This document shows, piece after piece, positions 8,129-38,147 of a stretch of 64,000 nucleotides of DNA. The notes under the pieces were generated by a model that did no database searches, had not been told where the DNA came from, and saw nothing but the letters and a program-made list of their open reading frames with translations. Source of the stretch: Gallionella sp. (GTDB lineage Bacteria; Pseudomonadota; Gammaproteobacteria; Burkholderiales; Gallionellaceae); contig JAQVVH010000002.1 of NCBI GenBank assembly GCA_028699065.1, forward strand, positions 350,175-414,174, given 5' to 3'. The translations under genes and the position numbers were made by a program. The stretch's first letter is position 1, and every line of letters begins with the position of its first letter.

Positions 8129-8539
8129 TCATTCCTTCCATTGCGATCTCAAAATATCCGGCACGCTCACCGGTTTGAACGTTGCGACGTCCACGCACAC
8201 CAGATGAATCTCGCCCTCGGCGAGCTTCTCCTCCCCGCGCAGCACGGTCTGTGACAGGGTCAGACGGCTCCGCCCCAATCCCGTCACCGCTGCTGTCACC
8301 TGCAACAAATCATCCAGCAGCGCCGGCCTGAAATACTCCAGACGGAGCGAACGCACCACGAACACCACCCCCAGGGTCTTCATCAGCCCGGCATTGCTAA
8401 AACCGAAAGTGCGCAGCCATTCTGTCCGCGCGCGCTCCATGAAGTTCACATAGCTCGCGTGATACGTCACGCCGCCTGCATCCGTGTCCTGAAAATACAC
8501 GCGCACCGGCCAGGAGAAAACCTCCGGTGACTCACTCAT
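8129..8539 (-). CDS. ybgC: Tol-Pal associated acyl-CoA thioesterase YbgC
   Basis: [30 protein letters not shown] hotdog thioesterase motif; start trimmed to [10 protein letters not shown]. Confidence 0.9.
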
Positions 8540-9578
8540 CCCACAACTCCTGATTGCTGCGCGGCTGCGCCAGACCGAAATGGCGGTAGGCATTGGCCGT
8601 GGCAATGCGCCCGCGCGGCGTGCGCTGCAGATAGCCCTGCTGGATCAGATAAGGCTCCAGCACATCCTCGATGGTGTCGCGTTCCTCACCGATCGCTGCC
8701 GCAAGATTATCCACACCGACCGGTCCGCCCATAAATTTCTCGATGACCGTCTGCAACAGTTTACGATCCATTACATCCAGACCTCGCGCATCCACATCCA
8801 GCATCGTCAGGGCCGCATCAGCCACTTCGCGCGAAGCATCACCCGCCGCCTTCACCTCGGCAAAATCGCGCACCCGGCGCAGCAACCGGTTGGCGATGCG
8901 CGGCGTACCGCGCGAACGGTGCGCGACTTCCATCGCACCTTCGGGCGAGAGATTCATTTCCAGCAATCGTGCCGAGCGCAAGACAATGCGCTGCAACTCT
9001 TCCGGCGTATAAAATTCCAGCCGCGCAACGATACCAAACCGGTCGCGCAGCGGATTGGTCAGCATCCCGGCACGGGTGGTGGCGCCCACCAGCGTGAACG
9101 GCGGCAAATCCAGTTTCACCGAGCGGGCCGACGGCCCCTCACCGATCATGATGTCGATCTGGTAATCCTCCAGCGCGGGATACAGAATTTCCTCGACGAC
9201 GGGCGAAAGCCGGTGAATCTCATCGATAAACAGCACATCATTGGGCTCGAGATTGGTCAGCAGCGCGGCCAGATCGCCCGCCCGCTCCAGCACCGGGCCG
9301 GAGGTGTGGCGAATATTGACGCCCATCTCGCGCGCCACGATTTGCGCCAAAGTGGTCTTACCCAAGCCGGGCGGCCCGAACAACAGGACATGATCGAGCG
9401 GTTCGCTGCGCCCGCGTGCAGCCTCGATGAAGATTTCCAGCTGTCCGCGAATTTTCTCCTGCCCGACATATTCATCCAGCTGGCGCGGACGCAAGGCGCG
9501 TTCCAGCGCCTCTTCCCGGGGAGAAGCCGCGACGGGAGAAATTACCCGATCTGTCGAAAGGTCGTCGTTTTCAATCAT
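8532..9578 (-). CDS. ruvB: Holliday junction branch migration helicase RuvB
   Basis: [12 protein letters not shown]...[20 protein letters not shown]...LFIDEIHRL. Confidence 0.96.
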
Positions 9579-9603: not shown

Positions 9604-10185
9604 TCAGGATTTCGACAAGAGCTTGAGCGCCTGCCGAATCCCCTCGGAAACACCGCAATCCGCAGGCAGCTGCTTCGCCGCCCAGCCAGCTTCCTTCTCG
9701 TTGTAACCCAGCGCGAGCAAGGCATTGACCACATCGTCGCCCGCCGACGTTGCGGCAACCCCCGCCGAACCTGCAAGCCCTGTCGCCACAAATTTTCCCT
9801 GCAGCTCCAGCAACAGGCGTTCGGCGGTTTTCTTGCCCACGCCCGGCACTTTGGTCAGGCGCGTCGCGTCCTTGCCGGACACCGCCGCGGCGAGATCCGC
9901 GAGACTCATGCCGGACAACACGGCCAGCGCCATTTTGGGTCCGACGCCGCTGATCTTGAGCAGCTGCCGGAACACGCCGCGCTCATCCCGGGTGGCAAAA
10001 CCGAACAGGAGATGCGCGTCCTCGCGCACAATCAACTGCGTGTGCAGCACGATCTTTTCGTTGAGCGCCGGCAGATTGTAAAAAGTGCTCATCGGCACAT
10101 CCACCTCGTAACCCACGCCCTGCACGTCCAGCAAAATCTGCGGCGGATTCTTTTCCAGCAAAATGCCGGTCAGCTTGCCTATCAT
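9604..10185 (-). CDS. ruvA: Holliday junction DNA helicase subunit RuvA
   Basis: [35 protein letters not shown]; start trimmed from 10302 to 10185. Confidence 0.95.
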
Positions 10186-18872: not shown

Positions 18873-20009
<1,137 letters not shown>

Positions 20010-20013
20010 AGAC

Positions 20014-20919
20014 ATGAACATCAACCACTTTTCCGAGGCGGTCTCCTCGCTCAAAACGGTGCGTGACTGCCTGCGTTTTGCGGTCAGCCGTTTCAACCAG
20101 GCCCAGCTGTTTTTCGGACACGGCAGCGATGACGCCTATGACGAAGCCGCCTATTTGATCCTGCACAACCTGCACCTGCCGCTCGACCGGCTCGAACCTT
20201 TTCTGGACGCCACCCTGACGCGACCCGAACTGCTCGGCATTTTGAATACGCTGGAAAAACGCGTGGAACAGCGTATCCCCGCCGCCTACCTGACCAATGA
20301 AGCTTTTTTGGGTGACTTCAGTTTTTATGTGGACGAGCGGGTCATCGTGCCGCGCTCCTTCATTGCCGAACTGCTGCGCGAACAGCTGGCGCCCTGGGTT
20401 ATCGATCCCGAATCGGTTGATTCGGTGCTGGATCTTTGCACCGGCAGCGGTTGCCTCGCCATTCTCGCTGCGCACGCATTCCCGAGTGCACACATCGACG
20501 CGGCAGACCTGTCCGCAGATGCCCTGGCCGTTGCAAAACGCAATGTGTCCGATTACGATTTGCAGGAAAAAGTGCAGCTGATTCGCTCCGATTTGTTCGG
20601 CGAACTGGCCGGTAAAAAATACGACATCATCATCAGCAACCCGCCTTATGTGGATGCACCCTCGGTTGCCGCCCTGCCCAAAGAATATCTGCACGAACCC
20701 AAGCTGGCGCTGGGCAGCGGTGAAGACGGCCTCGATGCCACCCGCATCATCCTCGCGCAGGCGGCAGAACACCTGACCGATCACGGCATTTTGGTCGTGG
20801 AAATCGGCTACAACCGCGATGCGCTCGAAGCCGCTTTTCCCGATCTGCCTTTCACCTGGCTGGAAGTCAGCGCGGGCGACCAGTTCGTCTTCCTGTTGCA
20901 CAAAAACGATCTGCGGTAA
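20014..20919 (+). CDS. prmB: Ribosomal protein L3 glutamine methyltransferase PrmB
   Basis: VLDLCTGSGCLAILAAHAFP and IIISNPPYVDAPS; HemK family; start trimmed to ATG 20014. Confidence 0.9.
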   Translation: MNINHFSEAVSSLKTVRDCLRFAVSRFNQAQLFFGHGSDDAYDEAAYLILHNLHLPLDRLEPFLDATLTRPELLGILNTLEKRVEQRIPAAYLTNEAFLGDFSFYVDERVIVPRSFIAELLREQLAPWVIDPESVDSVLDLCTGSGCLAILAAHAFPSAHIDAADLSADALAVAKRNVSDYDLQEKVQLIRSDLFGELAGKKYDIIISNPPYVDAPSVAALPKEYLHEPKLALGSGEDGLDATRIILAQAAEHLTDHGILVVEIGYNRDALEAAFPDLPFTWLEVSAGDQFVFLLHKNDLR

Positions 20920-21734
20920 TGGGCGTCGAGCATTACGAAAATTTTCCCGTTGCATCGATTCTGCTGCCCCGCCGCCTGCGCCGCGCAGTCGAAATTATCT
21001 ACCACTTTGCGCGTCAGGCCGATGACTTTGCGGACGAAGGCGACCTGCCGGAGGCAGAACGTCTCGCCCTTCTGGACAGCTTTCGCAGCGAACTGAAACT
21101 CATTGAAGCCGGCGAGTCACCAACCACGCCGCTGTTCCGCGATCTGCGCGACATCATCACCGCGCACGCCCTGCCGCTGCGGCCTTTCTACGATTTGCTC
21201 GATGCATTTTCGCAGGATGTCGTCAAAAAGCGCTATACGAATTTCGATGAGTTACAGGACTACTGCCGCCGCTCGGCCAATCCCGTCGGCCAGATTTTGC
21301 TGCATCTCTACGACGAAGCCACGCCGGTCAACCTCGCGTATTCGGATGCGATTTGCACATCGCTGCAACTCATCAATTTCTGGCAGGACGTGGCCAAGGA
21401 CTGGCGCATCGGGCGCGTCTATCTGCCGCAGGATGAGCTCGCCCAATTCGGCGTGGGCGAACACCAAATCGCCCAGGAAGATGCCAACGCTCAATGGCAG
21501 GCGCTGATGCAATTTCAGACCGTGCGTGCACGTGCGCTGATGCATGCAGGTAAGCCGCTGGGCAGCATTCTGCACGGCCGCATCGGCATTGAAATGCGCC
21601 TCATCATCGCCGGCGGCCTGCGCATTCTCGACAAACTTGAAAGCGCCCATCACGACATGTTCAATCACCGTCCGGTCTTAAAACCGCTGGACTGGTTTAT
21701 CATGCTGGTCCAATCTGCCCCGTTCCGTTTCTAA
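20919..21734 (+). CDS. hpnC: HpnC (squalene/phytoene synthase family, hopanoid biosynthesis)
   Basis: IYHFARQADDFADEGD and LINFWQDVAKDWRIGRVYLPQDE; upstream of hpnD/hpnE. Confidence 0.88.
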   Translation: MGVEHYENFPVASILLPRRLRRAVEIIYHFARQADDFADEGDLPEAERLALLDSFRSELKLIEAGESPTTPLFRDLRDIITAHALPLRPFYDLLDAFSQDVVKKRYTNFDELQDYCRRSANPVGQILLHLYDEATPVNLAYSDAICTSLQLINFWQDVAKDWRIGRVYLPQDELAQFGVGEHQIAQEDANAQWQALMQFQTVRARALMHAGKPLGSILHGRIGIEMRLIIAGGLRILDKLESAHHDMFNHRPVLKPLDWFIMLVQSAPFRF

Positions 21735-21735
21735 G

Positions 21736-22569
21736 ATGACACCCCAGAAATATTGCGAAGACAAAGCACGCCAAAGCGGCTCCAGCTTCACCGGCAGCTT
21801 CCGCTTTCTGCCGCGCGAACAGCGTGATGCCATGACCGCACTGTATGCGTTTTGCCGGGAAGTGGATGATGTGGTGGACGAATGTTCGGACGCGGGCGTT
21901 GCGCGCACCACGCTGAACTGGTGGCGCGCAGAAGTCGCCAACATCTACGCCGGCAACCCGCAGCATCCCGTTTGCCGCGCACTCGTGCCGGTGGTCCGGC
22001 GTTACCAGCTCGCGCAGGAATATCTGCTGGAAATTATCGACGGCATGGAAATGGATCTGGAACAGCCGCGCTATCCCGATTTCAAATCGCTGCAGCTCTA
22101 TTGCTACCGCGTCGCCTCGGTCGTCGGCCTGCTGTCGGCGGAAATTTTCGGCTACAAGGATCGGCGCACGCTTAAATACGCGCACGATCTCGGCATTGCA
22201 TTTCAACTTACCAACATCATCCGCGATGTCGGCGAAGACGCGCGACGCAACCGCATCTACCTGCCGATGGATGAAATGCAGCAGTTTGGCGTCACGGCGG
22301 CGGATATTCTCCAGGGACGGGAAACCGAAGGTTTCCAGAAACTCATGTCCTTCCAAATCGAGCGGGCCCACCGCTATTACGACCAGGCACTCGCGCAACT
22401 GCCGGCGGTGGATCGCAAGGCGCAACGCGCGGGACTGGTGATGGCGGCAATTTACCGCGCCACACTGGATGCCGTGGAAGACAGCGGCTGCCATGTACTG
22501 AAGCAGCGCGTATCGCTGGGCCCGCTGTACAAACGCTGGCTGGCCATCCGGGCGTGGCTCAAAAGCTGA
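21736..22569 (+). CDS. hpnD: Presqualene diphosphate synthase HpnD
   Basis: ALYAFCREVDDVVDECSD and LTNIIRDVGEDARRNRIYLPMDE. Confidence 0.9.
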   Translation: MTPQKYCEDKARQSGSSFTGSFRFLPREQRDAMTALYAFCREVDDVVDECSDAGVARTTLNWWRAEVANIYAGNPQHPVCRALVPVVRRYQLAQEYLLEIIDGMEMDLEQPRYPDFKSLQLYCYRVASVVGLLSAEIFGYKDRRTLKYAHDLGIAFQLTNIIRDVGEDARRNRIYLPMDEMQQFGVTAADILQGRETEGFQKLMSFQIERAHRYYDQALAQLPAVDRKAQRAGLVMAAIYRATLDAVEDSGCHVLKQRVSLGPLYKRWLAIRAWLKS

Positions 22570-23852
22570 ACGTCGGCATCATCGGCGCGGGCTATGCCGG
22601 TATGGCAGCTGCCGTCGAACTGGCCGCTCGCGGCATTCCCGTCACCGTCTTTGAAAGCGCGCGCCAGCCGGGCGGACGGGCGCGCGGCGTCCTGCATCAG
22701 GACACCCAGCTCGACAATGGCCAGCACCTATTGCTGGGCTGCTATCACGACACCCTGCGGCTGATCGGACAGGTTGGCGGCAATATCGAGCGGGACTTTC
22801 TGCGTCTGCCGCTGCAACTCGACCTGCACAATCACCTCACTTTGCAGGCGCCCTGCTTGCCCGCGCCACTGCACCTGTTGATGGCTCTGTTGCGCGCGGA
22901 GGGGCTGTCATTCAACGAACGCCTGCGGGCCATGCGATTCATGCTGGCAATGCGTCTGCGACATTTTCGTATCGCACAGGACACCAGCGTCAGCGAGCTG
23001 CTTGCGCAATACGGGCAGCCGCCCGCGCTGATTGAAAAACTCTGGGAACCCCTGTGCATCGCGGCACTCAACACCCCGATCGCACAAGCCTCCGCGCAAG
23101 TCCTGCTCAACGTATTGCGCGATGCATTCAGCCGGCGGCGCGCCGATTCCGACATGCTGTTGCCGCGCATTGATTTCACTCAACTGTTTCCGAAACGCGC
23201 GGTTGACTTCATCGAACGACACCACGGCAGCATACATTTTTCCTGCCGCGTGGAATCCCTCCAGCCCGCGCCGGAGGGCATCGCGCTTCACACCAGCGAA
23301 AATGTGCACACATTCACCCACATCATCTGCGCCACCTCGCCCACCGCCGCCGCCAAACTGTTACGCCCGTTGCCCGAATTGGCCGGTGTGGTGGCAAAAA
23401 TTGACGCCCTGCAAACGCAACCAATCTACACCGTGTACCTGCAATATCCGGCGCAAACCGCCCTGCCGCACGCCATGATCGGCCTGCATCAGAGCACCAG
23501 CCAGTGGCTATTCGACAAGGGGAAAATCAGTGGGCAGCCGGGCCTGATCGCCAGCGTCATCAGCGCCGAAGGCGCCCATCAGCAACTCACCCACGACGAA
23601 CTTTGCATGAAGGTGATCGCCGAATTGCGCAAACAATTCGGCATTGTCGAATTGCCACACTGGTACCAGGTCATCGCTGAAAAACGCGCCACCTTCTGCT
23701 GCGCACCCAACCTCCACCGCCCCGGGCAATCAACACCCCTACCCGGCTTATTCCTCGCGGGGGATTACACCGCCGGCGATTACCCGGCCACACTGGAAGC
23801 TGCGGTACGCAGCGGCATCACCTGCGCACGCACGATCATGAGTAAAAGTTAA
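22554..23852 (+). CDS. hpnE: Hydroxysqualene dehydroxylase HpnE (FAD-dependent)
   Basis: GTG start; VGIIGAGYAGMAAAVELAARGIPVTVFESARQPGGRARG; C-terminal LFLAGDYTAGDYPATLEAAVRSG. Confidence 0.9.
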   Translation: MAQKLNVGIIGAGYAGMAAAVELAARGIPVTVFESARQPGGRARGVLHQDTQLDNGQHLLLGCYHDTLRLIGQVGGNIERDFLRLPLQLDLHNHLTLQAPCLPAPLHLLMALLRAEGLSFNERLRAMRFMLAMRLRHFRIAQDTSVSELLAQYGQPPALIEKLWEPLCIAALNTPIAQASAQVLLNVLRDAFSRRRADSDMLLPRIDFTQLFPKRAVDFIERHHGSIHFSCRVESLQPAPEGIALHTSENVHTFTHIICATSPTAAAKLLRPLPELAGVVAKIDALQTQPIYTVYLQYPAQTALPHAMIGLHQSTSQWLFDKGKISGQPGLIASVISAEGAHQQLTHDELCMKVIAELRKQFGIVELPHWYQVIAEKRATFCCAPNLHRPGQSTPLPGLFLAGDYTAGDYPATLEAAVRSGITCARTIMSKS

Positions 23853-23881
23853 ACCCGGTATGTAAATTGCCCCCAACCACT

Positions 23882-26800
23882 TCATACCGCTGAAATTTCA
23901 TCCGCAATCATCTCTGCCTGCTTCAGCACCGTCTCGGTCGCCAGCAACTGCATGTCAGGCGGATAGCCAAATTGGCGCAGAGTGCGTTTCACGATCACCT
24001 TTAGTTTGGCCTTCACGCTTTCCTTGATCGTCCAGTCGATAGAAGCGTTCTCTCGTACCCGCTGAGTCAACACCACAGCCAACTCACGTAGCTTGTCTTG
24101 CTGCATCAATTCTTTGGCGCTCGCGTTATTTGCCACCGCCGTATAGAACGCATACTCAAAATCGCTCAATCCCAAATGCGAAGCTTCGGCATCGGAGGCA
24201 ACAATCTCCTTGCTGATCTTGATGAGCTCATCCATCACCTCGGCGGCGGTCAGCACCTTGTTGTGGTATTTCTTGATGACGTTTTCCAGCATCTCCATCA
24301 AGCTCTTACTCTGTACAAGGTTCTTCTTGGCACGCACTCGCAACTCGTCATTGAGCAGTTTCTTCAGCACTTCAAGCGCTACGTTCTTGTGCTTGAAGTC
24401 TTTCAACTCGGCGAGGAACTCATCGGACAGAACTGAAATATCAGGCTTCTTAATGCCCGCTGCATCGAATACATCAATCACCTTTTCAGACACCAGCGCC
24501 TGATCGATAACTTGTCGAATAGTGGTTTCAAGTTCTTCGTTGCTTAAGCCATTTCCCGTGCCGTCAAACTTTGCCAGTCGTGCCTTCACCGCTTGGAAGA
24601 AACCAACCTCATCCTTGGCGTCCATCGCCTGATCGTGCGGAATGGCAATGGCGAATGCCTGCGATAGCGCCGTCACTTCGTTAATGTAACGCTTGCGTCC
24701 GTCATCCAGCCCGAGGATGTGTTCTTCCGCTTCCAGTATCAGCGACAGCTTGCGTGAAGTCTCCGCCGCGAAATAATCCTCATAGGCAAAACCGCTGTAC
24801 ATCGCCGAAACCACTTCCAGCTTTTCCAGCATCAGGCTCACCGCCTGCTCCTGCGCCAGCGTCGGGTCACCCTTGCCACCCGCATCGGAATAGAACGACA
24901 GCGCTTCTTTCAGATCGGCGGCAATGCCCAAGTAGTCCACCACCAAGCCGCCGGGCTTGTCCTTGTGCACACGGTTCACTCGCGCAATCGCCTGCATCAG
25001 GTTGTGGCCCTTCATCGGTTTGTCGATGTAGAGCGTGTGCATGCTGGGCGCATCAAAACCGGTCAGCCACATGTCGCGCACAATCACCAACTTGAGCGGA
25101 TCGTCGTCATTCTTCATGCGCTCTGCCAGTGTGCGGCGCTGATCTTTGGTGGTGTGGTGCTTGGCCAGCAACGGGCCATCACTGCTTGCCGCCGTCATCA
25201 CCACCTTGATCATGCCCTTGTTCAAATCGTCGTCGTGCCATTCCGGCTTCAGCCGCACGATCTCCGCATACAACTCTGCCGCAATGCGCCGCGACATGCT
25301 CACGACCATGCCCTTGCCAGCAAACACCTGCTGCCGCGCCTCGAAGTGCGCCACGATGTCTTTGGCAATATTCTTGATACGCTGCTCGCTGCCGATCAGC
25401 GCTTCCATCTTGGTCCACTTGGCCTTGGCTTTCTGCGTCTCGGTCAGTTCGTCCTGATCAAGCTCTTCGTCCAGCTCGGCGATTAGTTTCTTGCCTTCGT
25501 CGGAGAGGCCCACCTTCGCCAAGCGGCTCTCGTAATAGATGCGCACCGTCGCGCCGTCTTCCACCGCTTGCGCGATGTCGTAGATGTCCACGTAATTGCC
25601 GAACACCGCCGGGGTGTTTACGTCGGTCTTTTCAATCGGGGTGCCGGTAAAGCCCAGATAGGTCGCGTTCGGCAACGCATCGCGCAGATATTTGGCGAAG
25701 CCGTACACTACCTTTTTGCCGATCACCTCGCCGCTGGCATCCTTGTCGTCCACCGTCTTGGCGCTGAAGCCGTATTGCGTGCGGTGTGCCTCGTCGGCGA
25801 TCACCACAATATTTTTGCGGGCGGACAACTGCTCGTACACATTGCCCTCTTCCGGCTGGAATTTCTGGATGGTGGAAAAGATCACTCCGCCAGAACCGAC
25901 TTTGAGCAATTCCTTCAACTGCTCGCGACTCCCTGCCTGCACCGGTTCCTGCCGCAGCAACTGTTTGGAAGCTGCGAACGTGTCGAACAACTGGTCGTCC
26001 AGATCGTTGCGGTCTGTGATCACCAGTATCGTCGGGTTATCCAGCGCCAGCACGATCTTGCCGGTGTAGAACACCATCGACAACGACTTGCCCGAACCCT
26101 GCGTATGCCACACCACCCCGGCCTTCTTGTCGCCCTTGGGCTGTTGCGCCACACCGGGCAGGCCGTAGCTGGCCGGAGACTGCGCCGCTTTCAGCTCGGC
26201 CATGTCTGCCGCGCGCAGCGTGGAAGCCACCGCCGCGTTCACCGCGTAATACTGGTGATACGCTGCCAGCTTCTTCACCGTGCTGATCGTGATCACCCCG
26301 GTCTTGGGGTCTTCCTTCTTCGATTTCTCGAAGACGATGAAATGGCGCACCAAGTCGAGCAGCGTCGCCTTGTTCAGCATGCCGTTAATCAGCACCTCTA
26401 ACTGACTCACCAGATGCGAAGCCTCCGCCTTGCCGTCCGCACTCTTCCAGCTCATGAAACGCGAATAGCCCGCCGAGAGTGAACCCGCCTTGGCCTCCAG
26501 CCCGTCGGAGATCACCACAAATGCATTGGACGTAAACAGGCTGGGGATGGCCTGCTTGTAGGTTTCCAGTTGCTGATACGCCGCCTTGATGGTGGCGTTT
26601 TCATCGGCGGCGTTTTTCAGCTCGATCACCACCAGCGGCATGCCGTTCACAAACAGCACCAGGTCGGGCCGCTTGTTCTGGTGGTTCTCGATCACCGTGA
26701 ACTGGTTGGCGACGACGAACTCGTTGTTCTCTGGTTTGGCGAAGTCAATCAGCCACACCCGCTCGCCGCGCTCGCCGCCATCTTTGTGGACGGATACCGG

Positions 26801-27091
26801 CACGCCCTCGGTGAGCAAACGATGGAATGCCTCGTTGTTCGCCAGCAGTTCGGGCGAATGGATACGCTGCACCTCCTTTAAGCCTGCTTGCAGCAATGCA
26901 GGCGACAGCTTGGGGTTGATGCGCTTGAGTGCCGATTCCAGCCGCCCGGTCAGCAGCACCTCGTCGTAACGGCTGCGTTCTGGCCTGTCGCCATCCGGCG
27001 CGATGTCCGGCGCATGGATGTAGTCGTAGCCCAGGCGCCCCAACAACTTGATGGCGAAGTCTTCGATGGCGGATTCGGTGAGCTTACTCAT
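23882..27091 (-). CDS. hsdR: Type I restriction endonuclease R subunit HsdR
   Basis: PD-ExK nuclease RPDLVLFVNGMPLVVIELK; translocase VVWHTQGSGKSLSM and VVIADEAHRTQYG; catalytic motifs intact. Confidence 0.95.
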   Translation of the reverse strand: MSKLTESAIEDFAIKLLGRLGYDYIHAPDIAPDGDRPERSRYDEVLLTGRLESALKRINPKLSPALLQAGLKEVQRIHSPELLANNEAFHRLLTEGVPVSVHKDGGERGERVWLIDFAKPENNEFVVANQFTVIENHQNKRPDLVLFVNGMPLVVIELKNAADENATIKAAYQQLETYKQAIPSLFTSNAFVVISDGLEAKAGSLSAGYSRFMSWKSADGKAEASHLVSQLEVLINGMLNKATLLDLVRHFIVFEKSKKEDPKTGVITISTVKKLAAYHQYYAVNAAVASTLRAADMAELKAAQSPASYGLPGVAQQPKGDKKAGVVWHTQGSGKSLSMVFYTGKIVLALDNPTILVITDRNDLDDQLFDTFAASKQLLRQEPVQAGSREQLKELLKVGSGGVIFSTIQKFQPEEGNVYEQLSARKNIVVIADEAHRTQYGFSAKTVDDKDASGEVIGKKVVYGFAKYLRDALPNATYLGFTGTPIEKTDVNTPAVFGNYVDIYDIAQAVEDGATVRIYYESRLAKVGLSDEGKKLIAELDEELDQDELTETQKAKAKWTKMEALIGSEQRIKNIAKDIVAHFEARQQVFAGKGMVVSMSRRIAAELYAEIVRLKPEWHDDDLNKGMIKVVMTAASSDGPLLAKHHTTKDQRRTLAERMKNDDDPLKLVIVRDMWLTGFDAPSMHTLYIDKPMKGHNLMQAIARVNRVHKDKPGGLVVDYLGIAADLKEALSFYSDAGGKGDPTLAQEQAVSLMLEKLEVVSAMYSGFAYEDYFAAETSRKLSLILEAEEHILGLDDGRKRYINEVTALSQAFAIAIPHDQAMDAKDEVGFFQAVKARLAKFDGTGNGLSNEELETTIRQVIDQALVSEKVIDVFDAAGIKKPDISVLSDEFLAELKDFKHKNVALEVLKKLLNDELRVRAKKNLVQSKSLMEMLENVIKKYHNKVLTAAEVMDELIKISKEIVASDAEASHLGLSDFEYAFYTAVANNASAKELMQQDKLRELAVVLTQRVRENASIDWTIKESVKAKLKVIVKRTLRQFGYPPDMQLLATETVLKQAEMIADEISAV

Positions 27092-28824
27092 TTAGCTAAC
27101 GATATTAGAAAATTCTTCTGCTCTTCAGAGAGCAGATTAGCAAGATCACCATCTTCGGATTGATCACAAAATTTTTGACATATCTGCAACTTTCGGCCCT
27201 GATCATCAATTACCAAACGGGGCAGATCAGGGTTATTTTGAGCAAGGCACTCTTCGCAGAAATTTAATATTTGCTTACCCTTGTGCGCAACCTTACTCCT
27301 TTGCTTAATCTGAGCTGCCGAAATTCCTTTGTACTTCGTTTTCTTTAGTATGGAATTGACCGCAGAAACAATTAAACTTGGCGGCAAAAAATCTTCAATT
27401 TCCCAATTTTCATCAGCATTTGCTACTGGCAAAGCCCCGTCATATCTAGGCATTGCCACTTTCGATACTTTGAGATGCTTATATGTCTTAACCTTCTTTG
27501 CTTGTTCACGCCCCTCAGGATCATTATCAAACATACAAATAAATTCAGGCTTGTATGAAAGGTCTTCTGCAAAGTTATCGTAGTATTGCAAGTACCCAGC
27601 AATTTTTGATGCACCGCCCGACCACACGATATTTGGTGTAGGTAAATTTAGGGCTGACATGAGAGTCGCGAGATACTTCTTATCCTCTTCGCCCTCAACA
27701 ATGATGTTGTAAGGCATAACCTCCCAGCCATCATTGTTACTTATGCCAAGATGGTTCTTTATGCATTGTGCCTTTTCGAAATCAGAAGTACATCTATAGG
27801 GTTTTGTATTGACCTCATAGAAAACTCTATCTGGTTTTCGACGGTAAGTTCTCTCTTCAATGGTTCCAACAAATATATGCGTGCTGTTCAGATTATTCAG
27901 ATTAATGAAATGCTGAGAGTGTGTAGTCAAAATCACCGGCTGATTCTGCTCCCCGACAATTTCATTAATGACTTGTGAAACCTTCTTTTGCAGACGGGGC
28001 TGGAGAAAAGCTTCAGGCTCATCTATTCCCCAGATAATTTTCTTTTTTGAGTTTTTTGCAATAAATTGCATCAAAGAAAGAAATACTGCTCGTTGAGCTC
28101 CGCTTCCTTTTGAAGCAATCCCATGTGTATTCCCATCAGACAAAGTAATTTGGGTCATCGTTTTAACAACATCCCTTAGCCTTTCAAACTCAGCAAACTG
28201 TATCCGAATATGCTTCCCTTTCAGAACACCATCAAAGTCCGTCAACTTATCAAAACAAATATTTATTTGCTTTTCAATGTCAGAAATCGCTTTCTGAGAT
28301 AGCGAGATAAATTCTCCGAGTTTGGCTAATGGTTCTGATTGCTTTGCTCTCTTGGTATCCAGAGGAAGCAGACCATCCCTCTCAAGTACCACTGAAATTA
28401 GTGATGGAAGGTCAATGTTGTGCGATTCAACGAATAGATAATGAAAATTGGCGAGCAACTCAATTGCTGCATCAACTTCAATAAGTTTGCCTCCCAAGTG
28501 GTATGTTATCGAGCCGTCATTTAGAAAAGTTACTTTCAAACTTGTCGATTTCTTGTCCTTCTTAAAGGTACCGATCAACTCTGTCTTTGCGCCTGCTCCT
28601 TGAGAACCATAGTAAATATGATGAGGAATATCCGCCTTCGGATCATAAACATCATCTCTAAATGGATGGTTAAAAAATACATTTAGCGCCCGTAAAAAAT
28701 TAGTTTTTCCGATATTGTTTTCGCCACAGATAGCCACTGGCAGGTTGTCATCTATGTCTATCTTTACATCCATCAACGAACGAAATCTTTTTACTTGGAA
28801 AGAAGAAAACTTGTACTCGCTCAT
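27088..28824 (-). CDS. OLD-family ATP-dependent nuclease (AAA/ABC ATPase plus TOPRIM domain)
   Basis: Walker A CGENNIGKTNFLRALN; Walker B KKIIWGIDEPEAFLQPRLQ; H-loop VILTTHSQHF; TOPRIM IIVEGEEDKKYL and CMFDNDPEGREQ. Overlaps hsdR start by 4 nt. Confidence 0.88.
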   Translation of the reverse strand: MSEYKFSSFQVKRFRSLMDVKIDIDDNLPVAICGENNIGKTNFLRALNVFFNHPFRDDVYDPKADIPHHIYYGSQGAGAKTELIGTFKKDKKSTSLKVTFLNDGSITYHLGGKLIEVDAAIELLANFHYLFVESHNIDLPSLISVVLERDGLLPLDTKRAKQSEPLAKLGEFISLSQKAISDIEKQINICFDKLTDFDGVLKGKHIRIQFAEFERLRDVVKTMTQITLSDGNTHGIASKGSGAQRAVFLSLMQFIAKNSKKKIIWGIDEPEAFLQPRLQKKVSQVINEIVGEQNQPVILTTHSQHFINLNNLNSTHIFVGTIEERTYRRKPDRVFYEVNTKPYRCTSDFEKAQCIKNHLGISNNDGWEVMPYNIIVEGEEDKKYLATLMSALNLPTPNIVWSGGASKIAGYLQYYDNFAEDLSYKPEFICMFDNDPEGREQAKKVKTYKHLKVSKVAMPRYDGALPVANADENWEIEDFLPPSLIVSAVNSILKKTKYKGISAAQIKQRSKVAHKGKQILNFCEECLAQNNPDLPRLVIDDQGRKLQICQKFCDQSEDGDLANLLSEEQKNFLISLAK

Positions 28825-28842
28825 AATGGATGCCTCAAAGTA

Positions 28843-30021
28843 TTAGTTAATCTCAACCCTTACCTCGCCGCTCATCAGCTTGGGCAGCAGGGTGTCGCGG
28901 AGCTTTTCGAGCGATTGTATCTGCTCATTGTTGGCCCACAGTTTTCTGATGTTTGGCATAACCAGCGCAGAATACTGCGCGGCCAAATCCATAGATGGCA
29001 AATTTGTTTTGATGTTGAGAATATCTTCCGGTCTTACCCTTTGATGACTTCCACTTGTACCCGACGCAGCCATCGTCAACTCATCCTTGGCATCGCCTGA
29101 GCGGAGAAAAAAATATATGTAGCCAAAAAGATTTGGGCTCTTTGGCGCGAACACCTGAAACTCGGTAGAGCAGATTGCATCACTTCCTGTTAGATCGCCG
29201 ATAGGCCATATTCGCGGAAACCTTGGATTCAACTTTGACACAAGGATTGTCCAAGGCTTGACTGCGTATTTATTGCTCAGTATTTCGCTACCAGCCTCCA
29301 TCGTCGGTCTCATTCCAGCATCAAAAGCAGGCAGGCTGTAGTGATGAAAAACCTTGTCTGGGGTTTTCGTAGGTACGACATTTCCCTTTAAATGCGTGGC
29401 GAAATCGCTAAGGCTGAACTCGTTCCAATCCTCCTGCGCCTCTTCAACGAACCATTGGCGGAACAAGGTTTCGGCCATGGCTTCGAGGGTTTTGTTCTGG
29501 CGGTGCAGCAGGTTGATTTTGTTGTCGAGGCTGCTGAGGACGGCAGCGATGGCTTTTTGTTCATTTAGCAAAACCGGTAAGCAGACCGTTAACTTCTCAA
29601 TATCTGAAGGCTTTAGGGACGGGTATGTGGATGTCGATGCTTCCGCAATAATATCCAGTTCTTCAACTATCAAATCAAACGACAAATAGTAATAAAGAAA
29701 CTTAGAGTCCAGCTTCTTTTCATCACAGGAAATAACAGCAAATCCGGTTGAGACAACTAAATTTTCAGGCGGATTTTGAATGTACCCATAGTGCCGTTGA
29801 ATTGGGCGAACAGTTGAATAGACAATGTCGCCATCCTTGACCAATCTCTTCGCTCTGCTTGGCGCACTGGAAATGGGTAGGGATTGAAGACCATCGATTT
29901 TTCCCCTCGTTATTGAGCCTGTATCCAAATATTTGATTTCCTGAAAAGGATAGGTGGCGTCGACAGTACCTTGATTTGTCTTTATAGCGCTAGCCAGCTC
30001 AATTTCCTGCCAAGCACTCAT
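28843..30021 (-). CDS. hsdS: Type I restriction-modification specificity subunit HsdS
   Basis: Two TRD halves with conserved helices [38 protein letters not shown] and C-terminal [19 protein letters not shown]. Confidence 0.95.
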
Positions 30022-31562
30022 ACCTTCACCTTCGCCAGATTCTCGGCAATGGCCTTGTTCAGCTTTGCCTCTTCCAGCAACTGCGCTTCGAATTCGGCCT
30101 TGAGTTGGGCGAAGCGCTCGGCAAAGTTAAAGTCGTCCTCTTCGTCCGGCAGGCCAACATAGCGGCCCGGCGTGAGCACGTAGTCCAGTTCTGCCACCCG
30201 CGAGAGCGGCACCGATGCACAGAAACCTTTCACGTCTTCATACGCTGCCTCGCCTGTGCGCCAGGCTTGGTACGTGGCAGTAATCTGCTGGATGTTCTCA
30301 TGCGAGAGTTCTTTGGTGCGGCGGTTGATGAGGTGGCCGAGGTTGCGTGCGTCGATGAACAGGATTTCGCCCTTGCGCCGGTGGCCATTGGTTCTCGCTC
30401 TATTCATGAACCACAGCGCCGCCGGTATCTGGGTATTGAGAAACAGCTTGGCGGGCAGGTTGACGATGCAGTCGATGAGGTTGCCATCGGCGATGAGCGC
30501 TTTGCGGATGTCGCCTTCGCCGCTGGTCTTGCTGGTGAGCGCGCCTTTAGCGAGCACCACGCCTGCTCTTCCATTGGGGGCGAGGTGGTAGATGAAGTGT
30601 TGCAGCCAAGCGAAGTTGGCATTGCCCGCTGGCGGCGCGCCGTATTTCCAGCGTCCATCGTTGCGCAGCAGTTCACCACTCCAGTCACTGACGTTGAACG
30701 GCGGGTTGGCGATGATGTAATCGGCCTTGAGGTCTTTGTGCGCATCGTTGAGGAAAGAGCCTTCGTTGTTCCACTTTACCTGCGAGGCGTCGATGCCGCG
30801 GATAGCGAGGTTCATCTTGGCTAGCCGCCAAGTTGTCTGGTTGCTTTCCTGACCGTAGATGGAGATGTCGTTGACCTTGCCCTGATGCTCGCTGACGAAT
30901 TTTTCCGATTGCACAAACATGCCGCCCGAGCCGCAGCAGGGGTCGAACACGCGGCCTTTGTAGGGCTCCAGCATGGCGACTAGCAATTCGACAATGCTGC
31001 GCGGCGTGTAGAACTGCCCGCCTTGCTTGCCTTCGGCCAGCGCAAATTCGCCGAGGAAGTATTCGAACACATGGCCCAGCACGTCGGCGCTGCGTGCCTT
31101 GGCATCGCCCAGCGCGATGTTGCCCACCAGATCGATCAAGCCGCCAAGGCTAGCGGGGTCGAGGTTTTGCCGCGCGAACACCTTGGGCAGCACGCCCTTG
31201 AGGATGGGGTTTTCTTTTTCGATGGCATCCATCGCCGCATCGACATGGCTGCCGATGTCGGGTAACTTGGCTTTCGCCAGCAAGAACGACCAGCGCGCCT
31301 CGGGCGGCACGAAGAAGATGTTCTCAGCTTTGTATTCGTCCTTGTCTTCGGGATCAGCTCCGGCCATTTCGCCTTCGCCTTTTTGCAGCGTGGTGTACAT
31401 CTCCTCGAATGAGTCGGAGATGTATTTCAGGAAGATCAGCCCGAGGACCACGTGTTTGTATTCTGCGGCGTCGATGTTCTTGCGCAGCTTATCGGCGGCC
31501 TTCCAGAGTTGTTTTTCTAGCGGTTCTTCTTTGACAATTTTTTCCTGAGACTTTTTAGCCAT
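30018..31562 (-). CDS. hsdM: Type I restriction-modification DNA methyltransferase HsdM
   Basis: [14 protein letters not shown] (motif I) and [12 protein letters not shown] (NPPF motif IV); start trimmed to [13 protein letters not shown]. Confidence 0.95.
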
Positions 31563-31682
31563 AGTTTTTATGTATAAATCGGTTTTAGAGACGGGCACTT
31601 CAACATACCCCAAGCTCACCAGACGAGCTTTGCAGGAGCAGGATAATAAACCTTTGGAAGGTCAACAATCGAATTCCGGGAG

Positions 31683-31697
31683 TAGAAATTTTTTCTA
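31683..31697. repeat. Perfect inverted repeat TAGAAA-TTT-TTTCTA in the hsdM upstream region
   Basis: tagaaattttttcta read directly. Confidence 0.6.
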
Positions 31698-31723
31698 AAA
31701 CTAAAAGCCTATATATTTCAGTC

Positions 31724-31738
31724 TATGCATATTGCATA
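31724..31738. repeat. Perfect inverted repeat TATGCA-TAT-TGCATA in the hsdM/HPP divergent region
   Basis: tatgcatattgcata read directly. Confidence 0.6.
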
Positions 31739-31820
31739 TCACATACCCTGCTACAAGAAAGGTTGAGTCCTGCCCCGCCGCGTCTTAACATGCGTGCAAT
31801 CTTGCCAGAGGCCAAAAGCC

Positions 31821-32519
31821 ATGAACGATTTCTTCAGACGTTTCCGTCCCCAGGTCAGCCCCGTTTCGCTGGCTGAAAAAGTGCGCAGCGGCATCGCGGG
31901 CGGAGTGGCAATTCTGGTGCTGGGGCTGGTGTTGCATGCACTGCCGCAAGGCCCTTACCAGATCGTGATGCTGGGTTCGATCGCCGCGTCGGCGGTGCTT
32001 TTGTTTGCGGTTCCGCACAGTCCGCTCGCGCAACCCTGGAATCTGGTTGGCGGGCATCTGATTTCCTCTCTTCCCGGCTGGTGGTTTGGCGTGTGGATTC
32101 ACGATCCCGTGCTGGCAGGCGCTGCCGCCGTGGGCATGGCCATTTTCCTGATGTATTACATGCATTGCCTGCATCCGCCGGGGGCAGCTACCGCGTTGAC
32201 ACTGGTGCTGGCGAGTCAGCAGTTTCATCCGATGGGTGAACTGTGGGCGCTGTATATCGTTGCGGCCAATGCGCTGACTTTTCTGGTTCTCGGTCTGGTG
32301 ATCAATAATCTGCTGCCGGAACGGCGCTATCCGATGCAAGCTGCCGCAGCCGCTGCACCGCCAAAACCCGGGCCGTTTATTACGCTCGAACATGCCGATT
32401 TTGAATGGGCGCTTTCCCGGATGGATAGCACGATCGACGTAAGCGAACAGGATCTGACCGTCATTTATCAGCACGCGCTGCAACACGCGCAAACGCGAAC
32501 CGAGAAGCAAAAGAACTAG
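31821..32519 (+). CDS. HPP-family integral membrane protein
   Basis: TM-rich; HPP-domain features MLGSIAASAVLLFAVPHSPLAQPWNLVGGHLISSLPG and HPPGAATAL; start trimmed to ATG 31821. Confidence 0.85.
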   Translation: MNDFFRRFRPQVSPVSLAEKVRSGIAGGVAILVLGLVLHALPQGPYQIVMLGSIAASAVLLFAVPHSPLAQPWNLVGGHLISSLPGWWFGVWIHDPVLAGAAAVGMAIFLMYYMHCLHPPGAATALTLVLASQQFHPMGELWALYIVAANALTFLVLGLVINNLLPERRYPMQAAAAAAPPKPGPFITLEHADFEWALSRMDSTIDVSEQDLTVIYQHALQHAQTRTEKQKN

Positions 32520-32605
32520 ATTCACCCGCATTTTCAGGCACGAAAGGGCTCCGGCTTACCTTATAATCGCGGCTATCTTTTCACGGCCATCCCGGAGCTC
32601 GTCCC

Positions 32606-35296
<2,691 letters not shown>

Positions 35297-35304
35297 GGAA
35301 CATC

Positions 35305-36699
35305 ATGAGCCACCGCACCGAACGCGATTCCTTTGGCACGATCGAGGTGCCCGCAGAGCGACTTTGGGGGGCGCAGACGCAGCGCTCGATTCAGTTCTTC
35401 CATATCTCGATCGAACAAATGCCGCGCGAACTCGTGCGGGCGCTGGCCTCGGTCAAGCGCGCCGCGGCACGGGTGAACCAGGATCTTGGACTGCTCGATG
35501 CCACTAAAGCCAAAGCTATCGTGCAGGCGGCGGATGAAGTACTCGCGGGTCAGCATGATGCGGAATTCGTGCTGTCGGTCTGGCAGACCGGTTCCGGCAC
35601 GCAGAGCAATATGAACATGAACGAAGTGCTGGCGAACCGTGCGTCGGAACTGCTCGGCGGCGAGCGCGGCATGGCACGCAAGGTTCACCCCAACGACGAG
35701 GTAAATCTGGGCCAGTCGTCGAACGACATTTTCCCGACCGCAATGCATGTGGCTGCCGCCGAAGCTGTCAGCCGTCAACTGCTGCCCGCTCTGCGTGAAC
35801 TGCGCGCCACACTGGCGCAGAAATCCCGCGAGTTTGCAGGGATCGTGAAAATTGGCCGGACGCATTTACAGGACGCGACGCCGCTGACGCTGGAACAGGA
35901 ATTCTCCGGCTACGTTGCCCAGCTCGATCACGCCGAGGCCGCGATAACGGCGACGCTGGGGCCGTTGCACCGGCTGGCCGTCGGGGGCACGGCGGTCGGC
36001 ACGGGGCTGAATACGCATGCCGCTTTTGGCGAACGCGTGGCCGCAGAACTCGACCAGGCGCTGGGTCTGCCGTTCGAAAGCGCTGCCAACAAATTCGCCG
36101 CGCTGGCCAGCAATGATGAATTGGTCGCGGCACATGGCGCACTCAAGACCCTCGCGGCAGCGCTGATGAAAATCGCCAATGATGTTCGCTGGCTGGCGTC
36201 CGGCCCGCGCTCGGGACTGGGCGAGATCAGCATTCCGGAAAACGAACCGGGCAGTTCGATTATGCCGGGCAAGGTCAATCCGACCCAGAGCGAAGCGCTG
36301 ACCATGCTGTGCTGCCAGGTTTTCGGCAACGATGTGGCAATCAACTTTGGTGGCGCTTCGGGCAACTTCGAGCTGAATGTCTTCCGCCCCATGATCGCGC
36401 ACAATTTCCTGCAAAGCGTGCGGCTGCTGGCCGACGGGATGGCGAGTTTCGAGGCACACTGCGCGCGCGGAATTCAGGCCAACACCGCCCGGATTGCCGA
36501 GCAGATGCAGCGCTCGCTGATGCTGGTCACGGCGCTTACGCCGCATATTGGTTACGACCGCGCCGCCGAAATCGCGAAGCGCGCACACCATGATGGCAGC
36601 ACACTGAAGGAAGCGGCGCAGGTGCTGGGTTATGTCTCCGGGGAAGATTTCGACCGCTGGGTGGTTGCCGCCGACATGGTGCACCCGCGCGGAGAATAA
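35305..36699 (+). CDS. fumC: Class II fumarate hydratase
   Basis: [49 protein letters not shown]. Confidence 0.96.
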
Positions 36700-37617
36700 C
36701 TAGCGGTGAAGACGGTCGAGGCCCTCGTCCGAAAGCGACAAGGGGTCTTCCAGCGGTTCCAGATGTGTGGTGACATGGGCTTGCGGCACAGCAAGCCGGA
36801 TATCGTGTTCGATGCGTTCCAACCAGTCGTGCCCCTGCTGCACGCTCCATTCACCCGGCACCATGACATGCAGCGTCACGAAGGCGCGCATGCCGGCCTG
36901 ACGGGTACGCAACGCGTGGAAATCCAGTCCCTGGGCACGATACTTTTCCAGCACGGCTTCAATCGCATGGCATTGTTCGTCCGGAAGCGAAGCATCCATC
37001 AAGCCGGCGGCCGAACGACGCAACAAGTGCCAGCCCGTCCAGACGATATTCGCCGCCACCAGCAACGCAATCACCGGATCCAGCCACAGCCAGCCGCCAA
37101 GCCAGACCAGCACCACCCCGAAAATTACACCCACCGAAGTCCAGACATCCGTGAGCAAATGATGGGCATCGGCTTCCAGCGTAATCGAATGATGCGCGCG
37201 ACCGACTTTCATCAGGGTTCGAGCGGTAAGTAAATTGATGATCGACGCCACGACCGAGACGGCCAAACCCACACCGACCGATTCCAGCGCTTGCGGATGC
37301 AGCAGACGATCAACCGCGGCATAGGCAATGCTCAGCGCCGCGAGGAGAATCAGGAATCCTTCGAATGCACTTGAAAAATATTCCGCCTTGCCATGACCGT
37401 ACGCATGTTTTTCGTCGGCGGGTTCGGCCGCCAGTGAAAGCATGGCCAGCGCCATCAGCGCGCCCGCCAGGTTGACGAAGGATTCCATCGCATCGGATAG
37501 CAGGCCGACGGACCCGGTCAGCCACCAGGCAATCCCCTTGAGCAGAATGGTGGCGACGGCTGCCGCAATCGACAGCCAAGCATAACGCTTTAGCGTAGCG
37601 GCTTGAACGTGACTCAT
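36700..37617 (-). CDS. Cation diffusion facilitator family transporter (FieF-like)
   Basis: [49 protein letters not shown] and [14 protein letters not shown] (HxxxD). Confidence 0.9.
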
Positions 37618-38147
37618 TCTTCCGGCACTTCGCGTTCCGGAAACAACTCGGAGGTAAAGCCGAATTTGCGCATGTCGCGCATGCGCATCGGATACAGAAT
37701 GCCGTCGAGATGATCACACTCGTGTTGCACTACGCGGGCGTGGAATCCACCGACCGTGCGCGCAATCAGCGCCCCGGTTTCGTCACGGCCCGTATAGCTG
37801 ATCTGACTGAAGCGCGGTACACATCCGCGCAAGCCGGGCAGACTCAGGCAGCCTTCCCAGCCTTCTTCGATCACGTCTCCCACGGGCGTGATCTGCGGGT
37901 TGATGAGCACGGTTTCGGGCACTTCGCCCGCATCGGGATAACGCGCGTTGTGCTTAAAACCAAAGATCACCACACGCAGCGGAACACCGATCTGGGGCGC
38001 CGCCAGGCCTGCACCGTTCGTGGCTCGCATGGTGTCGCGCATATCTTCCAGCAACCGCCGCAAGGCCTCGGTACCGAAATCGCTCACCGGCTCGGCAAGC
38101 TGTTGCAAACGTGGGTCGCCCATGCGCAAAACGTTCCGCACCGTCAT
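37614..38147 (-). CDS. def: Peptide deformylase
   Basis: [35 protein letters not shown]. Confidence 0.95.

Follow-up and report, generated by a model that had tools for sequence, protein, structure and literature searches.

An OLD-family nuclease gene in the hsdS-hsdR interval of a type I restriction-modification operon from Gallionella

The window analysed here, a 64,000-nucleotide stretch of a Gallionella sp. contig, contains a complete type I restriction-modification (R-M) operon in which a gene for an OLD-family protein, an ABC ATPase joined to a TOPRIM nuclease domain, lies between the specificity gene hsdS and the restriction gene hsdR. We think it somewhat probable that this gene encodes a self-contained defence nuclease, carried as exchangeable cargo of the hsdS-hsdR (S-R) interval and serving as a backup layer beside the R-M system. 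This reading draws on the invariance of the catalytic residues, on the fold matches of the TOPRIM part, on relatives that occur without hsd genes, on the cargo present in most comparable S-R intervals and on the low G+C content of the OLD gene.

OLD proteins are already known, as are defence genes between hsdS and hsdR. Our literature search, which had partial coverage, found no paper describing an OLD protein in the S-R slot. Current OLD classes are drawn by gene neighbourhood (alone, with a helicase, with a retron, or in PARIS), and an OLD gene within an hsd operon falls outside them. For the clade described below, gene context does not follow lineage: members of a single lineage are found alone, prophage-borne or embedded in R-M operons.

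Results

The operon and its genes

On the minus strand the genes run in the order hsdM (30018..31562), hsdS (28843..30021), OLD (27088..28824) and hsdR (23882..27091). Family searches recovered HsdM_N and N6_Mtase in hsdM (PF02384, 9e-108; PF12161, 2e-26), Methylase_S in hsdS (PF01420, 4e-20), and HSDR_N, SWI2_SNF2 and T1RH-like_C in hsdR (TIGR00348, 1e-177; PADLOC REase_I, 1246 bits); all three hsd frames are intact. The likely ATG start of hsdM gives 30018-31562, while an upstream GTG would lengthen the gene to 31619. ATGA overlaps of 4 nt join hsdM to hsdS and the OLD stop to the hsdR start, and 18 nt (28825..28842) separate hsdS from OLD, all of it as the initial annotation had described.

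A promoter scan detected no promoter-like site on the minus strand within the operon, the hsdS-OLD junction included, and no consensus site in the AT-rich region upstream of it (31563..31793, minus strand), which we presume to be the promoter region. The OLD gene probably shares a transcript with the hsd genes, and its product would hence be present whenever the R-M system is. The operon is flanked by genes whose translations, by reading, resemble squalene/carotenoid-type enzymes and aconitase. A search among members of the genus for an unoccupied chromosomal site of the locus did not reveal one: next to the hpnE-like gene there was neither an aconitase nor an HPP-type flank.

The OLD protein

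The OLD gene encodes 578 amino acids in an intact frame. Its product combines an N-terminal ABC ATPase (AAA_15, 2e-29) with a C-terminal TOPRIM domain whose Pfam score lies just below the cut-off (22.7 against 23.1 bits; 1e-4), and it matches the PADLOC Old profile (8e-25). The features that define the OLD family, an ABC ATPase with Walker A, Walker B and H-loop and a TOPRIM domain with the E...DxD acidic motif, are all there. Indeed, every motif named in the initial annotation is present, and in an alignment of all seven clade members the ATPase residues G34, K40 and T41 (Walker A), D268 and E269 (Walker B) and H302 are invariant, as are the TOPRIM residues E377, D433 and D435, together with E477/D478.

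A model of the last 234 residues, comprising the TOPRIM part, reached a pLDDT of 78; its best matches, with modest scores and E-values, were a retron Eco2 protein and the C-terminal domains of Burkholderia and Xanthomonas OLD proteins. AlphaFold gave a poor model of the full-length protein (pLDDT 59.8), so the structural matches of that model were set aside.

The earlier view of this protein as a probably active member of the OLD family gains support from catalytic motifs kept clade-wide, and on these motifs the nuclease is probably active. In YbjD, however, the TOPRIM domain is dispensable for phage phenotypes (PMC13261556); conserved TOPRIM motifs alone are thus no proof of a nuclease-based effect. 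DNA and tRNA as the substrate are not distinguishable by sequence.

Relation to the known OLD classes

Class 1 OLD enzymes, defined as single genes away from other defence genes, are 5'-3' exonucleases, one of which linearises circles as well (PMC10568477). Our protein resembles those of this class (P2 Old, T. scotoductus OLD, YbjD/OldB) in being a single-gene ABC ATPase plus TOPRIM of similar length, with the Walker and acidic residues conserved and with clade members that also occur alone and in prophages; its similarity to a solved class 1 OLD (6P74) is weak, at E 1.5e-11 by profile. It departs from the class in lying inside an hsd operon rather than in isolation, though five of seven relatives lie outside. 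Class 2, the Gabija type, pairs OLD with the UvrD-like helicase gene gajB, and class 3, the retron type I-B, with a reverse transcriptase and an ncRNA. No helicase or reverse transcriptase gene adjoins our OLD gene, and Rfam gave no match, including no ncRNA, in 20000-38000 of the window, which bears out the initial assignment to neither type.

With class 4, the AriA/AriB system PARIS, our protein shares the logic of an AAA_15-type ATPase plus TOPRIM, and its ATPase half matches the general AriA profile. PARIS itself usually comprises two genes; it senses the anti-restriction protein Ocr through AriA, whereupon the TOPRIM protein AriB cuts tRNA (PMC12409363). In our protein, by contrast, Toprim is the only C-terminal Pfam family, with no AriB-type domain, and no separate TOPRIM gene adjoins.

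Where the close relatives occur

The clade comprises seven loci: the window and six others (L011 to L016). Its members are 42-63% identical, with every motif conserved. Two lie in hsd S-R slots, three in prophages and two elsewhere in chromosomes. In two tailless Vibrio prophages (L011, L012) OLD is a lone gene adjoining the integrase; prophages of this kind have variable loci in which defence genes are over-represented (PMC11630473). The third prophage-borne copy, on an IMG/VR contig (L016), lies between portal and terminase genes. A Shewanella copy (L015) stands alone in the chromosome, and the Legionella copy (L013:10001-11740), which has one in-frame TGA, is separated by about 3 kb from an hsd locus of the EcoR124 type whose own S-R interval holds an AAA_13 gene. 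Only the gammaproteobacterial metagenome-assembled genome L014 repeats the order M, S, OLD, R, with a 4-nt overlap of hsdS and OLD and with the OLD end 12 nt ahead of hsdR. One Shewanella genome (G276), possibly incomplete, gave an OLD match and no HsdR match. The expectation, set beforehand, that close homologues would sit mainly within hsd loci failed, since five of the seven OLD genes lie away from hsd operons.

Several hundred genomes of the same class, the same phylum and other hosts' groups, queried with the OLD protein, yielded no further close member. Plasmids gave nothing at 1e-10 and, under a laxer threshold, no more than distant OLDs; repeated scans of viral contigs with different queries returned L016 alone. 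The clade is therefore rare, and two of seven is a small sample. A search for RecB produced no match above the cut-off in any of four genomes. Beside the packaging genes of the OLD-bearing prophage contig we noted a DUF6088/AbiEii pair (L016:3701-5078), and near the Legionella OLD a DUF6088/AbiEi-type protein (L013:13212-13811).

The S-R interval as a cargo slot

We surveyed 80 loci with a related HsdR from the same bacterial order, 66 of them with recognisable hsdS and hsdR genes, and counted as cargo any same-strand ORF of at least 150 amino acids between the two. Such cargo was found in 55 of the 66 loci (one extra ORF in 21, more in 34) and was missing from 11, counts from mechanical ORF calling that may include spurious cargo ORFs and overlook some HsdS. 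Much of the cargo belongs to defence families. The slot houses Fic/RhuM, Schlafen AlbA, DUF3800, AbiEii, GmrSD, KwaB, SIR2, AAA_13, Mrr and HerA-like proteins, among others, and some of this cargo matches PADLOC candidate families (PDC). Carrying cargo is a general feature of the S-R interval. Our OLD clade was absent from the S-R intervals of the surveyed related-HsdR loci.

One locus whose HsdR is 80% identical to ours (L062) carries in the slot an AbiLi/AbiLii pair, AAA_21 plus RloB; like our operon it places an OLD-like ATPase there, but as one of two genes and from another ATPase subfamily. Similarly, in the RRDM island of EPEC a second defence system, DarTG2, lies between hsdS and hsdR, although this is a toxin-antitoxin pair and not an OLD protein. 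The EPEC site has been proposed as a potential recombination hotspot, and a pair of an AAA ATPase and an RNA-binding protein also occurs between hsdS and hsdR (PMC12255303).

The 4-nt overlap with hsdR had been taken in the initial annotation as a mark of tight coupling between OLD and its operon. The overlap itself is real, but it carries no special weight: in 15 of 71 loci the gene preceding hsdR shares 4 nt with it, and in some of these that gene is hsdS and the slot is empty. As this overlap is common whatever the gene, coupling is a property of the slot and nothing special to OLD.

Partial copies of the hsdR 5' end (36-206 nt, 74-92% identical, same strand) were seen upstream of hsdR in about nine of 70 loci, lying amid the cargo (L052, L054, L060, L066, L073, L076, L087, L094, L095). 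The matches concentrate within the first 300 nt of hsdR, with few in the rest of the gene; these copies look like scars of a stepwise stacking of cargo at the hsdR start. At L065, where hsdR is split into two ORFs, two such remnants (8481-8569 and 10009-10074) lie between one cargo gene and the next, as though every cargo gene had brought along a copy of the hsdR start.

OLD in two unrelated hsd families

The two hsd-borne OLD proteins, from the window and L014, are 58% identical. In contrast, identity between the same two operons is only 26% for HsdM and 24% for HsdR, in each case across part of the protein, and HsdS shows no credible similarity. OLD thus has not shared the history of the hsd genes; probably this slot took up OLD in two separate events, one in each type I family, or OLD moved between hsd families. 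A tree of the clade does not group the two hsd-borne OLDs, a topology that is compatible with two entries, but with support of 60-71% and a very distant outgroup we do not take it as proof.

The OLD gene differs in composition from its neighbours, with a G+C content of 39.4% and GC3 of 37.5% against 57.5% and 74.8% for hsdM and 57% G+C for hsdR. Similarity to close loci at the DNA level covers hsdM (71-89% identical to most of 14 close loci compared), two spacer stretches of hsdS and, beginning near the start codon, hsdR, while OLD has none. On these sequence features, OLD moved horizontally into the operon. Within hsdS, whose G+C content of 46% is below that of hsdM and hsdR, the match to close relatives is limited to the central and C-terminal spacers; the target-recognition parts therefore differ, as expected if recognition domains are exchanged.

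Discussion

If the OLD protein is a self-contained backup nuclease, cotranscription with the hsd genes would put it at hand wherever the R-M system is. The ATPase might keep the TOPRIM nuclease inactive until a phage-made signal is sensed, for which the candidates are free DNA ends, a protein inhibitor and the disturbance of a host repair complex; the TOPRIM centre would then cut phage DNA or host tRNA, and the infection would be stopped. There are points against this reading. The presence of OLD in two unrelated hsd families could mean that the two are functionally coupled, beyond the slot being a hot one, and the frame of the Legionella copy, which lies close to an hsd locus but not in it, is interrupted by a stop.

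Such coupling could take the form of a guard. The prrC gene is located within an hsd locus (PMC12707154), and our OLD gene occupies the prrC position, as the initial annotation had pointed out. By analogy, OLD would be held latent on HsdRMS and, once Ocr or Stp disables restriction, be freed to cut tRNA or DNA and kill the cell. Like PrrC in EcoprrI, it combines an ABC-type ATPase with a nuclease and is encoded inside the hsd locus. Moreover, the two apparently independent entries into S-R slots make the association more than one chance event, the AbiL-type ATPase and RloB pair occupies the same slot beside a close HsdR relative, and OLD-related TOPRIM enzymes include guards, namely PARIS, triggered by Ocr, and P2 Old, which reportedly responds when RecBC is inhibited and cuts tRNA (PMC13261556). 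Nonetheless, we regard a guard as unlikely. PrrC has an anticodon nuclease of the HEPN type in place of TOPRIM. It is described as always occurring with type Ic R-M (PMC2610378), while just two of the seven OLD loci are hsd-linked; one Shewanella genome, maybe incomplete, has OLD and no HsdR match, and the slot houses many unrelated genes. The position stands, but with most close homologues elsewhere it does not imply an effector that guards HsdRMS. In its occasional linkage OLD is closer to RloC, another ATPase-nuclease defence protein, linked to R-M in 8 of 73 cases (PMC2610378), though RloC is an anticodon nuclease with a zinc-hook coiled coil and a nuclease domain unrelated to that of OLD. 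The bolder proposal that OLD twice independently became a type I R-M guard, a TOPRIM-type counterpart of PrrC that senses phage inhibition and fires through an ATPase-TOPRIM switch, strikes us as quite unlikely.

It is more doubtful still that OLD acts as the second step of a relay, degrading as an exonuclease the DNA ends that HsdR translocation and cutting leave. Class 1 OLD enzymes do have 5'-3' exonuclease activity (PMC10568477), and OLD and hsd share an operon; yet relatives exist without hsd, and the S-R cargo is too diverse for one common biochemical step. Finally, the high turnover of the slot, the AT-rich, recent-looking insert and the broken Legionella copy would suit a mere passenger, kept only through its in-frame insertion into a mobile R-M operon, but this is very improbable given an intact frame of 578 residues, motifs all kept among relatives at 42-63% identity, and the recurrence of the gene at other sites of a mobile or defence kind.

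The two unrelated type I systems that hold the same OLD form a natural pair, in which cooperation with R-M can be tested against the mere sharing of a promoter. Elsewhere in the Gallionella genome, a second, EcoR124-type hsd locus (contig C7, L167:3020-9744) has a Bro-N domain gene in its S-R slot. On another contig (C5, L138:6592-17037), genes for an SNF2 helicase, an SMC/AAA-like protein, an N6/N4 methylase and a Res-like helicase lie head to tail, a four-gene set that is probably another defence locus.
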